From assembly GCF_016862815.1 (NCBI RefSeq), contig NZ_BONR01000001.1:744001-808000 (forward strand): 64,000 nt of DNA. Direction: 5' to 3'. The notes under the pieces were generated by a model. It ran no database searches. It was not told the origin of the DNA and was given only the letters and a program-made list of their open reading frames with translations. Numbering within the stretch: position 1 is the stretch's first letter; every line of letters begins with the position of its first letter. The translations under genes and the position numbers were made by a program. Source of the stretch: Demequina activiva (GTDB lineage Bacteria > Actinomycetota > Actinomycetes > Actinomycetales > Demequinaceae). This document shows, one piece after another, positions 49,367 through 52,644 of the stretch.

Positions 49367-50509
49367 ATGCTGCCCCTCATCCTCGGATCGATCGCCTTGA
49401 TCGTCGGGGTGATCGCTCTGGTGCTGGCGGTCTCCGTGACCCGCCGTGTGGGCGCCCGCGACCCGTTCGCCGTCCCCAAGTTCTGGCGACGCGTGCTGCG
49501 CATCAAGCCGGCGACGGCCAACGTCAGCGGCGCCTTCACGATCGATGCTCCGGACAAGCAGCGGGTCGCCTTCGTCGCCAACCCCAGCAAGGAGAGCGTG
49601 ACCGAGATCCGCGAGCGGGCGATGCGGGCATGCGCGATCCGCTACCTGCCGCAGCCCATGTGGTTCGAGACCACCGTGGACGATCCGGGCACGGGACAGG
49701 CGCGCCGGGCCATCGCCGCCGGGGCCGATGTGGTGATCGCCGTCGGGGGCGACGGCACCGTGCGGGCCGTGGCCGAGGCGCTCGCCGGCACGGACATCGC
49801 CATGGGCATCCTCCCCATGGGCACCGGCAACCTGTTCGCACGCAACCTGGACCTTCCCATCAACGACACCTCCGCGCTGATGCGCACGGCCCTCGAGGGC
49901 GTGGACCGCCCCGTCGACGTGGGCTACATGGACATCGAGCGCGCGTTCCCCGGCCACGGGGAGGACAGCCGTCACCTGTTCCTCGTCATGGCGGGCGCGG
50001 GCATCGATGCGGAGATGGTCGCGGGTGCCAACGCGACGCTGAAGCGGCGCCTGGGATGGATGGCGTACTTCTTCGCCGCTCTCGAGCACCTGGGCGACAA
50101 GCGCATGACCGCGACGGTCAGGATCGACGATGCGGAGCCCGTCACGAACGAGATGCGCACCGTGCTGCTGGCGAATGCGGGCAGGCTGCCCGGGGGCCTG
50201 CAGCTGATCCCCGACGCCTCGATCTCGGATGGCCTGCTGGACATCGCCACGCTCGACGCACGCGCCGGGATCGTGGGCTGGACGGACCTGTTCGGCTCGG
50301 TCATCGCGCAGGGCGCAGGCATCAAGCAGTCGGAGCTGCTGCAGGCGTGGCGCGCCTCCCGCATCGATCACGGTCGAGGCAGCTCGGTGGAGATCGCCAT
50401 GGCGTCGCCGCAGCGCGTTCAGGTCGACGGCGAGGAGCTGGGGCGCGCGTCGCGTGTGAAGGCGTGGCTCGAGCCCGGATCGCTCCGAGTGAGGGTGCCG
50501 GCCACCTGA
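49367..50509 (+). CDS. Diacylglycerol/sphingosine kinase-family protein
   Basis: A 380-residue DAGK_cat protein. An N-terminal membrane helix (LILGSIALIVGVIALVLAVSV) is followed by the ATP-binding core VVIAVGGDGTVRAVAEALAGTDIAMGILPMGTGNLFARNL and the second domain AGAGIDAEMVAGANATLKRRLGWMAYFFAAL. It probably phosphorylates a lipid at the inner membrane face, as DgkB/YegS proteins do. Followed at once by the inverted-repeat element at 50548. Confidence 0.9.
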   Translation: MLPLILGSIALIVGVIALVLAVSVTRRVGARDPFAVPKFWRRVLRIKPATANVSGAFTIDAPDKQRVAFVANPSKESVTEIRERAMRACAIRYLPQPMWFETTVDDPGTGQARRAIAAGADVVIAVGGDGTVRAVAEALAGTDIAMGILPMGTGNLFARNLDLPINDTSALMRTALEGVDRPVDVGYMDIERAFPGHGEDSRHLFLVMAGAGIDAEMVAGANATLKRRLGWMAYFFAALEHLGDKRMTATVRIDDAEPVTNEMRTVLLANAGRLPGGLQLIPDASISDGLLDIATLDARAGIVGWTDLFGSVIAQGAGIKQSELLQAWRASRIDHGRGSSVEIAMASPQRVQVDGEELGRASRVKAWLEPGSLRVRVPAT

Positions 50510-50547
50510 GCCGTCGCATCGGCCGTCTCCCCCACTCCCGCTCCCTC

Positions 50548-50602
50548 AGAATTTGGCACCATTTTCATCGCCCAATAGGCGCAATGAGGAAGAACCTTCC
50601 AG
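50548..50602 (+). repeat. Left arm of the DUF559 element
   Basis: AGAATTTGGCACCATTTTC then ATCGCCCA, a 9-base variable stretch, then ATGAGGAAGAACCTTCCAG. The inner block forms its own small dyad GGAAG/CTTCC. Confidence 0.75.
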
Positions 50603-50618
50603 CGGCGCGCGACGAACG

Positions 50619-51536
50619 TCAGCGCTGCCTCACCGCAAGAGCCTCTCGCGCACGGGCCCGGCACCACTCGGGTCGACGCGTCACGTCCTCCCACGTGAGA
50701 CGAATCACGGAGTAGCCGGCCGCCACGAGAAGCGCGTCTCGCTCGAGGTCCTTGCGCCGCGCCTGGTCGTCGGAGTGATATCGGCGGGAGTCGAGCTCGA
50801 CCGCGACCTTCGCGTCACGGTGCAGCATGTCGGGGTGCAGCGCGACACCCACCGCGATCACCTCCCCCTGGCGCTCCCAGCCCTGCCACTCCGGACCCAC
50901 GAACACCTGCGTCGCCGCGACGTGCTCGAGCATGCTCTGCACTCCGGCCCTAGCCAGATCGACGACCTCGGCGAGCTGTGCGCGCGCGGGAATCCGCCCG
51001 TGCTCGGGCAGGCGGCGCCGCAAGGCCTCGGCGTCAACCGGTCCGTCTCTCATGATGTCGAGGAGACGGCCGATGCGCTGGTCGGGGGCCGCTCGGCGCC
51101 ATACGAGGATCGCGGCGTCCTCGGGCGACAGCACCCGCACTCCGTCGACCACCGCAATCTCGAACGGTCGATCGGTACGCAGAACTGTCGCGCATCGTGG
51201 CGCGGAACGTCGTACCGCCGTGGGCAGCACCACGTCGACTGCGTCGAACCGCGCCGCGGCCCATCCATGCAGCCACAGCGCTGCCGCGCCCGAGATCGCG
51301 CCATGCGGCTCCATCCACCTCACGACAGCCTCGATCTGGCACGCGACGCTCGTCTGATGCTCGCGGTGCGCCCACTGCCCAGGCGCGATGCGCACTACCA
51401 GCCCGTATCGCTGCGCGTCGGACAAGGTTCGCCTGCTCCAGCGCTCCTCGAGCTCGCCGCGAGACCACGGGCGTGGGTATGCGGCCATCGCCGCTGCCAT
51501 CGAGGCGACGGACGGGGCGCTGCGGCGTCGAGTCAT
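50619..51536 (-). CDS. AbiEi-HTH plus DUF559 (Vsr-like endonuclease) protein
   Basis: A 305-residue protein. Residues 1-95 contain an AbiEi-like winged helix: WSRGELEERWSRRTLSDAQRYGLVVRIAPGQWA, then a nucleotidyl/antitoxin-core-like ISGAAALWLHGWAAARFDAVDVVLPT. The C-terminal 110 residues fit DUF559, a PD-(D/E)xK/Vsr-type fold: GVALHPDMLHRDAKVAVELDSRRYH, then KDLERDALLVAAGYSVIRLTWEDV. The D and E-x-D positions suit a metal-dependent nuclease. The family is abundant in actinobacteria without a proven role. Here it is the only gene inside a pair of terminal inverted repeats, which makes a selfish or homing function worth testing. Confidence 0.78.
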   Translation of the reverse strand: MTRRRSAPSVASMAAAMAAYPRPWSRGELEERWSRRTLSDAQRYGLVVRIAPGQWAHREHQTSVACQIEAVVRWMEPHGAISGAAALWLHGWAAARFDAVDVVLPTAVRRSAPRCATVLRTDRPFEIAVVDGVRVLSPEDAAILVWRRAAPDQRIGRLLDIMRDGPVDAEALRRRLPEHGRIPARAQLAEVVDLARAGVQSMLEHVAATQVFVGPEWQGWERQGEVIAVGVALHPDMLHRDAKVAVELDSRRYHSDDQARRKDLERDALLVAAGYSVIRLTWEDVTRRPEWCRARAREALAVRQR

Positions 51537-51619
51537 GACACGGACAGTAAGAGTGGGGACGAGGAGCGCGCTCGAGCCGGCGCGTCACCTGTGGACATCG
51601 TTCAGGGTGAGCGGCCGCT

Positions 51620-51673
51620 GTGGAGACTCTTTCCTCATCGTTCCGTCTGGGCGATGAAAATGGTGCCAAATTC
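51620..51673 (-). repeat. Right arm of the DUF559 element
   Basis: Reverse-complement arm: GAATTTGGCACCATTTTC then ATCGCCCA, a variable segment, ATGAGGAAAGAGTCTCCAC. The outermost A differs from the other three copies. Confidence 0.75.
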
Positions 51674-51693
51674 CGGGAAGTCGGGTGGAGGGG

Positions 51694-52644
51694 TCAGGCG
51701 TGGTCGCCGTTCCTCAGCTGCTCGACCCACGCCCGGGCGTCCGCGAAGTCCGCGTCCGAGGTCCCCGGCACCACTGGCGTGGGCTCATCCGCCGCCGCCG
51801 GGTACGAGCCCAGGAACACCACCAGCGGGCAGGTGCGACGCAGGCCCATGAGGGCCTCCGCCATGCGCTGCTCCGCCACGTGCCCCAGGGCGTCGATCGA
51901 GAACGAGTACTCGCCTGGCCGGTCCCAGCGGGGACGCGACTCGATGCGTGACAGATTCACGCCGCGCGCCGCGAACTGCTCGAGCATCTCCAGCAGCGCG
52001 CCGGAGCGGTCCGTGGGCAGGTGGACGGTGAGCGTGGTCTTGTCGCGGCCCGTGGGCTCGGGCACGGCCGCGGGACGCCCCACCTTCACGAACCGCGTCG
52101 CAGCGTGCTCGTTGTCCGCGACGTGCTCCTCGATCAGGTGCAGCCCCAGGCCGGCGGCGGTGCCTGGTGGAGCGAGTGCTGCGTCGACGTCGATGCCCTC
52201 GACGGCCTCGCCGGCGGCGATCGCTCGCGCGCCCGCGGCGTTCGAGGAGGCGGGCACGAACACCGCCTGCGGAATGGTCACGTGCGCCCATCGACGCACC
52301 TGGGCCCAGGCGTGCGAGTGCGCGGTGACCCGCGTGATGTCGCCGTGCGCGATCCCCTCCCGCGCGACCAGCTCGAACTCGACGGGCAGGACGGTCTCCG
52401 CGAGGATCACCAGCGGTGCGCCCTCAGCCAGCGTGTCCAGGGTCGCGGTGACGCCGCCCTCGACCGTGTTCTCGATCGCGACCACAGCGAAGTCGACCTC
52501 GCCGGCACGCACCGCGCCCAGGGCCGCCGGCACGTCCACCACGGGCACGTACTCGGCGTCCTCGGGGGACACCATGCGGCGCAGGGCCGCCTCGGTGAAG
52601 GTGCCAGCAGGTCCCAGGAACGCGTAGCGGGGCCTCGTGCTCAC
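51694..52644 (-). CDS. pheA: Prephenate dehydratase
   Basis: A 316-residue enzyme converting prephenate to phenylpyruvate. The catalytic domain starts RYAFLGPAGTFTEAALRRM and has VVAIENTVEGGV and TRVTAHSHAWAQVRRW. A C-terminal ACT domain (HLPTDRSGALLEMLEQFAARGVNLSRIESRP) gives feedback control by phenylalanine. Monofunctional, without chorismate mutase, as is usual in actinobacteria. GTG 52644 overlaps the glycosyltransferase stop by 4 nt. Confidence 0.95.
   Translation of the reverse strand: MSTRPRYAFLGPAGTFTEAALRRMVSPEDAEYVPVVDVPAALGAVRAGEVDFAVVAIENTVEGGVTATLDTLAEGAPLVILAETVLPVEFELVAREGIAHGDITRVTAHSHAWAQVRRWAHVTIPQAVFVPASSNAAGARAIAAGEAVEGIDVDAALAPPGTAAGLGLHLIEEHVADNEHAATRFVKVGRPAAVPEPTGRDKTTLTVHLPTDRSGALLEMLEQFAARGVNLSRIESRPRWDRPGEYSFSIDALGHVAEQRMAEALMGLRRTCPLVVFLGSYPAAADEPTPVVPGTSDADFADARAWVEQLRNGDHA

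Follow-up and report, generated by a model that had tools for sequence, protein, structure and literature searches.

A DUF559 nuclease gene between inverted repeats in Demequina and a dispersed family of cognate palindromes that it may maintain in trans

The DNA analyzed here, the window, is a stretch of 64,000 nucleotides (G000:C1:744001-808000) within the 2.47-Mb genome of Demequina activiva (G000). Two inward-facing copies of a repeat arm, at positions 50548-50601 and 51620-51673 of the window, enclose a single ORF of interest (50619-51536, minus strand), whose 305-aa product is predicted, from Pfam, AlphaFold2 and structural neighbours, to consist of an AbiEi-type module and a DUF559 nuclease of the Vsr/EDxHD fold. 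Each arm has two boxes. In the left arm, box A (AGAATTTGGCACCATTTTCATCGCCCA) occupies 50548-50574 and box B (ATGAGGAAGAACCTTCCA) 50584-50601, both on the plus strand; in the right arm both boxes are inverted and lie on the minus strand, with box B at 51620-51638 and box A at 51648-51673 (located by a 19-mer match). A repeat finder extended the flanking arms to 50529-50591 and 51631-51693, 63 nt with 76% complementarity. When ≤3 mismatches were allowed, the arm 19-mer matched the window four times (100 shuffles averaged 0.00): the gene-flanking arms and a second pair at 1-203. This second pair has no gene inside; its left box A (1-27, a 19-mer match) and left box B (37-55) are on the plus strand, its right box B (148-165) and right box A (176-202) on the minus strand.

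Thus the first-pass annotation, which described inward arms framing one AbiEi/DUF559 gene and a gene-less pair at 1-203, was right on both counts. Its arm length of ~54 bp was a fair description: over 24 arms from 12 elements of the genome, box A (26 nt) is 92% conserved by column, the spacer (10 nt) 54% and box B (18 nt) 84%. No Rfam family matched the arms in the window and at three loci. Pfam identified the neighbouring genes as diacylglycerol kinase and prephenate dehydratase; among the neighbours checked in this way there was no AbiEii/DUF1814 nucleotidyltransferase toxin adjoining the gene.

For the protein itself, Pfam scored DUF559 at 25.2 bits (cut-off 20.6), while MTES_1575 REase (34.7 bits, cut-off 38.2) and AbiEi_1 (14.7 bits, cut-off 22.2) stayed below threshold. 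In the AlphaFold2 model (pLDDT 94.8) residues 8-196 resemble the Streptococcus agalactiae AbiEi antitoxin 6y8q (Z 11.1, rmsd 6.9 over 182 residues), and the N-terminal part also resembles Rv2827c (1zel, Z 8.4); the AbiEi assignment is better supported by modelled structure than by Pfam. Residues ~200-305 are close to the putative endonuclease NGO0050 (3hrl, Z 12.6), and the C-terminal part to the homing endonuclease I-Bth0305I (3r3p, Z 12.4, rmsd 2.7 over 96) and to Vsr (1cw0, Z 9.7, rmsd 2.7 over 100), in agreement with the Vsr-like fold that had been proposed for the DUF559 part. Further fold matches were to MenT-type nucleotidyltransferase toxins (residues ~60-199, Z 8-9) and to TnsA (Z 6.0). 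Eight residues, E204, D236, E247, D249, H254, D263, R266 and D267, are invariant in 42 aligned sequences; we take the first five to be the putative catalytic set of the EDxHD/Vsr fold.

The protein is therefore predicted to join an AbiEi-like module to the Vsr/EDxHD homing-endonuclease fold. With the type IV AbiEi antitoxins (S. agalactiae AbiEi, Rv2827c) it shares the fold of its N-terminal ~195 residues, but it carries a nuclease domain and has no nucleotidyltransferase toxin next to it. With I-Bth0305I and Vsr it shares the fold of the nuclease domain, but the DUF559 gene was not seen in an intron or intein, is fused to an AbiEi-type module and is tied to a repeat family. AbiEi proteins are reported to bind inverted repeats (PMC7319586), and the AbiEi-type module would make binding of the arms plausible. 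I-Bth0305I is described as dimerizing on a target of nearly 60 bp (PMC3943268); from these two reports, a dimer on a palindrome of ~56-60 bp would be the natural reading.

The arms belong to a family spread over the genome. The 17-nt arm core, AATTTGGCACCATTTTC, matched the whole genome 39 times at ≤3 mismatches (reversed control, 0). These matches are read as 17 inverted pairs, two single arms and three weak (3-mismatch) matches, which gives 19 arm sites. Of the 17 pairs, five are 56-bp palindromes, eleven are elements of 145-261 bp without a gene, and one is the gene-bearing element of ~1.1 kb, spanning 1123 bp from core to core. The interiors of the gene-less elements have mainly a GCCGATGCG-type motif in common; one pair is 82% alike over 66 nt. 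We rejected the idea that the gene-less elements are MITEs formed by internal deletion, as no gene remnant was found in the 11 mid-size elements of this genome (best tblastn E 0.15).

A separate observation concerns the 10-mer GGCCGATGCG, which often occurs as an inverted pair mid-way in the gene-less arm elements. It has 89 copies (three for the reversed 10-mer) in 194 kb (G000:C1:694001-888000); among relatives there are 63 copies and 0 reversed in 200 kb of G027, and just 10 and 3 in G006.

Terminal inverted repeats accompanied by short gene-less copies are the usual anatomy of MITEs, and one could suppose that a conventional transposase (DDE or RAYT) acting from another locus mobilized the repeats, the DUF559 gene being a passenger or neighbour. 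GTAG, described in PMC3733652 as the tag of RAYT-linked REPs, occurs in two other arm families, GTAGGCAACTCA and GGTAG. We nevertheless consider this origin improbable. No transposase lies between the same arms elsewhere in the genome, since the other 16 pairs (arms within 3 mismatches) span ≤261 bp and are too short for a transposase gene; inspection by eye of the 25-nt flanks showed no target-site duplication at any of the 17 paired sites; and the link to DUF559 recurs with different arms across actinobacteria, which would not be expected of a passenger.

Arm sites are found mostly downstream of genes. With a simple gene caller, 16 of the 19 sites were ≤54 nt from the 3' end of a gene; by orientation of the adjacent genes 10 sites were convergent, eight tandem, one undetermined and none divergent. 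In six other genomes seven of 58 arm clusters were divergent and two were inside called genes. Pyrimidines predominate in the left flanks and purines in the right ones (fractions 0.84 and 0.82 for the 17 pairs of the window's genome); for 21 Demequina doublets the fractions were 0.75 and 0.76, versus 0.50 and 0.51 at 216 control midpoints.

The doublets have a strict architecture: in 21 of 21 from Demequina the cores were spaced exactly 40 nt apart, although 38-43 nt were allowed. Folded as DNA hairpins, four doublets gave z from -9.9 to -13.5. In an alignment of 19 doublets we counted 39 cells in which both sides had changed and still paired, against a shuffle mean of 20.8 (0 of 500 shuffles as high), and the count fell to 2-6 when the partner was slid. 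The covariation score and the percentage paired exceeded all 500 shuffles, although the tool cautions that shuffles may be exceeded through relatedness of the sequences. Two further measures did not stand above the shuffles, namely how many pairs had a double change (33 of 500 shuffles as high) and how many pair types occurred (257 of 500). The hairpin is kept by paired changes.

Comparison of orthologous gaps in 100-200-kb stretches of seven genomes showed gene-less copies that are present in some species and absent from others. Two G038 copies (at 124645 and 126550) lie between convergent genes; the corresponding gaps are 19 and 9 nt in G000 and 18 and 4 nt in G027, and at the first of these sites G031 has a gap of 69 nt with an unrelated perfect hairpin. 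The site G006:1270309 is filled in G006, G021 and G030; elsewhere the gap measures 15 nt (G038), 12 nt (G031), 68 nt without a core (G000) and 92 nt with a possible remnant (G027). At other sites the palindromes are spelled differently. The site of the gene-less pair at 1-203 of the window reads AATTTGGCACC... in G000, and the orthologous gap holds a TGGATCCA palindrome in G030 and a similar palindrome in G027; another common site has AAATGGCTCC in G038 and G021 and GAGTTGGGCCC in G027, and is empty in G000 (7 nt) and G030 (62 nt). Either repeated insertion or conversion in place would explain different spellings at common sites. Exact insertion junctions could not be aligned, because the median protein identity of the compared stretches is 69-88%.

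The first-pass annotation had named, as the outcome that would speak against a selfish element, arms that occur solely at gene 3' ends with fixed synteny. Part of this picture was found, in the nearness of the 16 sites to 3' ends and in the fixed place of the gene (see below); the presence or absence of gene-less copies between species at orthologous gaps does not agree with it.

The chief rival to the reading that we develop below is drawn from the same observations. The palindromes could serve the host, as 3'-end hairpins or terminators, or as RNA-stability, nucleoid or replication sites, with the DUF559 protein acting as a regulator; the flanking arms would then be autoregulatory operators and the copies would be kept by selection on the cell. 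The position of sites close to 3' ends, none of them clearly divergent, the strong conserved hairpins and the unrelated hairpin that stands instead at one gap of G031 are all in line with such a function, and AbiEi antitoxins are reported to autoregulate through inverted repeats (PMC7319586). On the other hand, autoregulation has no need of a downstream arm, yet both arms are kept and matched; the gaps of 4-19 nt in relatives indicate that some sites are dispensable; and the putative nuclease residues are invariant. Also, a consensus scan for terminator-like sites (GC-rich stem plus T run, the T tail being required) found 0 at 50300-52000, that is, at the gene locus, the one place scanned. We regard a host function as rather unlikely, though well worth keeping in mind.

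The gene, unlike its gene-less relatives, stays in place. The window's genome has three close paralogues of the gene and one remote relative. Nine of 44 Demequina genomes, that of the window among them, carry the gene or an orthologue with 44-66% identity, and pheA adjoins each of the nine (eight loci directly, the split copy of G010 via L064). At a second kind of locus, where Pfam confirms ClpX as the neighbour, clpX was within the fetched 1.5-kb flanks of 25 of 55 distinct Demequina DUF559 loci and within 3-kb flanks of 29 of 48 loci from Blastococcus, Modestobacter, Geodermatophilus and others; at 49 loci sampled across the class clpX was beside the DUF559 gene in none. Given this fixed synteny, the gene is a long-term resident at its pheA and clpX sites, and a selfish hopping gene was rejected on the same ground. 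A phage or plasmid origin was rejected as well: the search of phages yielded no relative, and that of plasmids a single weak, partial match.

The orthologous nuclease gene of Demequina litorisediminis (G010, L064) is split over two frames (L203/L220, G010:C1:1207603-1208446), and the genome retains its 64 matches of the cognate palindrome despite the split. A sequencing error may be responsible, since the assembly scored 50% complete.

For the proposal that this is a transposase-less selfish element in which the nuclease takes the part of the transposase, the outcome is divided. The gene-less arms do recur, no other pair spanning more than 261 bp; the gene-bearing unit, however, remains at pheA and clpX and does not hop. 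These fixed places are easier to reconcile with a resident nuclease whose palindromes are spread in trans than with one that stands in for its own element's transposase.

The fixed position bears on two more alternatives. If the enzyme were a homing endonuclease, the ~56-bp palindrome would be its dimeric target, the gene would sit in a split and thereby immune copy, and the dispersed copies would be relics or decoys. The EDxHD catalytic-domain fold, the dimeric target of nearly 60 bp given for I-Bth0305I (PMC3943268) and the position of the gene between two half-palindromes in G000 would suit homing. But the intact gene coexists with full palindromes, which remain empty of it; it has kept to its pheA or clpX sites and not moved into further palindromes; and in some other species one arm alone is a near-complete palindrome. 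Homing therefore seems to us a poor candidate. Still more doubtful is a role in defence or conflict, where the AbiEi-nuclease fusion would act on invaders and the palindromes would mark self DNA or serve as decoys: the neighbours are housekeeping genes (diacylglycerol kinase and prephenate dehydratase at the main locus, ClpX at the other), and phages and plasmids offer only the weak partial match mentioned above.

The spelling of the arms differs between species, and the two arms of a locus differ less from each other. At the pheA locus the arm is spelled AATTTGGCACCATTTTC in G000, AAATGGCTCCATTTCGC in G006, G038 and G021, AAATGGATCCATTTGG in G031 and GAGTTGGGCCCAACTC in G027. For seven of the nine pheA loci (G041 and G010 were left out) the identity of left and right arms was 0.89 (n=7), compared with 0.62 between genomes (n=84; maximum 0.90). 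For 16 clpX loci, picked for having arms, the values were 0.83 and 0.58 (n=480 between genomes; maximum 0.92). Identities inside a locus are biased upwards, because arms are defined by their mutual match. We also observed that a second paralogue of the window's genome (L021, G000:C1:841187-842089) has arms of its own, of the GTAGGCAACTCATG type, with two further matches at ≤1 mismatch (G000:C1:844404 and C3:321697); at ≤3 mismatches this type has 14 matches, against six in the reversed control.

Are such species-specific arms dispersed in the genomes that hold the gene? For the spelling AAATGGNTCCATTTSG (≤1 mismatch), near-palindromic so that one arm may count twice, the numbers of matches were 175 in G006, 136 in G021, 70 in G038, 64 in G010, 51 in G031, 49 in G041, 10 in G030, 1-2 in six other genomes and 0 in the remainder; the reversed control gave one match overall, in G011, and 0 in the seven genomes with ≥10 matches. 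The spelling GAGTTGGGCCCAACTC (≤2 mismatches) had 54 sites in G027, six in G030, three in G041 and ≤2 elsewhere (control: 0 in G027, up to two sites elsewhere). Over the Demequina genomes, AATTTGGCACCATTTTC at ≤2 mismatches was confined to G000 and one match in G011. A population of cognate arms was thus present in nine of nine holders of the pheA-site gene, G030 being a low-copy case (10 matches, six sites, two spellings); none of the 35 genomes without this gene exceeded two sites of any of the three spellings (one-sided Fisher p 1.4e-9, 9 holders versus 35 others). As the three patterns were picked from the arms of gene holders, the co-occurrence says that the three tested spellings are not retained without the gene; other genomes may hold other palindromes. 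The two pheA-type palindrome spellings at low copy in G030 possibly represent turnover in progress.

For the clpX-type arm GGTAGSTNNTGGTCGSTT we found 28 matches in G017, 20 in G005, 15 in G042, nine in G014 and seven each in G013 and G019, with controls of 0 in these six; nine further genomes had 1-4 matches, and outside the six the control did not exceed 1. Some observations on arms of this and other loci speak against the reading proposed below. G014 and G019 disperse a GGTAG-type arm, yet the clpX-type genes fetched from them (L046, L041) have no detectable arm. In G000 the arm of the clpX locus has its own two exact copies, and the other 23 matches are at 2 mismatches, with five in the control; dispersal of the clpX arm in G000 is weak. 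Outside the genus, 12 genomes of Geodermatophilaceae and others had 0-14 arm matches at ≤1 mismatch (control 0-2), and a 400-kb stretch of G209 had no full palindromes of the TGATCAT kind described below away from the gene. Wide dispersal is a property of some clades.

We propose that a resident nuclease maintains and spreads its cognate palindromes in trans, a REPIN/RAYT-like arrangement with an unrelated nuclease, and we hold the chances of this reading to be about even. It builds on the flanking of the gene, the dispersal in the pheA clade, the species-matched spelling, the presence and absence of copies, the covariation and the predicted fold; binding, cutting and copying in trans are the steps it would have to add. 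The nuclease gene, with the gene-bearing copy, would stay at one place, and the arms would be the cognate sites of the enzyme. The AbiEi-type N-terminal part might bind the box A/B half-sites and the Vsr/EDxHD-fold C-terminal part might cleave one or both strands at the palindrome. The enzyme would maintain and spread a genome-wide palindrome family in trans, as ~56-bp A-A' doublets and ~200-bp A-B...B'-A' units, placing them mainly just downstream of genes, at pyrimidine/purine junctions. With drift of enzyme specificity in a lineage, the flanking arms and the dispersed copies would change along.

The nearest parallel is REPIN/RAYT. As described in PMC3116915, REPINs are inverted doublets of short palindromes with predicted hairpins, over-represented in extragenic space; the RAYT is a single-copy enzyme gene located beside the same repeat and seemingly unable to move itself, and RAYT and repeat are thought to diversify together. 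The Demequina system likewise has inverted doublets of a short palindrome that are scattered mostly in DNA between genes, and its gene, present once for each repeat family and at a conserved position, is flanked by the same repeat. The difference is in the enzyme, which is of AbiEi-type plus Vsr/EDxHD fold and not a HuH Y1 transposase of the IS200/IS605 group. As to the tag, GTAG/CGTC is absent from the ends of the 24-arm consensus of G000, but GTAG does occur in the GTAGGCAACTCA and GGTAG families. TIRtrons/TIRYT, in which tyrosine transposase genes lie between long TIRs and some have dispersed TIR families (PMC3733652), are similar in having a gene between long, sometimes double-palindromic TIRs; they differ in that the TIRYT enzyme is a HuH tyrosine transposase and the one here has an unrelated fold. 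Because the flanked gene does not code for a HuH enzyme, the DUF559 system is not a member of the REPIN/RAYT or TIRYT families.

In the PMC literature searched, no paper linked DUF559 with inverted repeats; the papers containing both DUF559 and 'palindromic' deal, by their titles, with CRISPR/type VI secretion and with NAD metabolism. The unrelated enzyme fold, together with the absence of such a link from the literature searched, suggests a kind of repeat-spreading system that has not been described. The cohesion of RAYT and repeat is called an open question in the account of those who defined REPINs (PMC3116915). A second fold, with genes in 139 of 197 sampled genomes of the class, would, if the reading is true, show that partnerships of an enzyme and a palindrome arise repeatedly. 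DUF559 proteins would also gain a testable function, with species-matched pairs of enzyme and site available for binding and cutting tests, and the system could account for some of the intergenic palindromes of high-GC bacteria.

One could go further and speculate that actinobacterial AbiEi-DUF559 proteins are a second, independently evolved group of 'palindrome keepers', resident enzymes of the homing-endonuclease fold which each recognize, copy and homogenize private palindromes of ~50-60 bp in trans, several such genes, each with its own palindrome, being able to share one genome. The ecology would be that of REPIN/RAYT, arrived at with a nuclease of other descent. We offer this extension tentatively and believe it somewhat less probable than not. 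The genes themselves are widespread: the class sample of 197 genomes includes the window's, and a single genome may have at least 12, which is as many as were scored per genome. Flanking inverted repeats were evaluated against sham windows from the same loci. Of 55 distinct Demequina DUF559 loci (from 199 genus matches, mostly the best matches per genome), 38 had flanking inverted repeats above the 99% level of 218 shams; left out here were a remote relative (L023), a duplicate (L024), repeated loci and the two pieces of the split G010 gene (L203, L220). The other 17 loci had no arm above this level, so that the question raised by the first-pass annotation, whether DUF559 genes of the clade always lie between arms, has the answer that most do and a considerable minority do not. 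Outside Demequina 21 of 44 tested loci exceeded every one of 176 shams (48 loci, less L108, L119, L125 and L128 with contig-limited flanks). Among 49 loci from other genomes of the class (29 best-match loci and 20 picked by genome) 29 were above the 95% level, 26 above the 99% level and 17 above all 196 shams. Roughly half to two thirds of the loci have flanking palindromes, which are thus common.

A ~50-bp palindrome of its own accompanied nearly every paralogue tested in two genomes that belong to a single genus: five of six paralogues in G247 and all five in G209, making 10 of 11. These palindromes (L335-L337, L339, L340, L345-L349) have a common outer TGATCAT and differ further in, as if paralogue-specific inner sites plus a common end were read.
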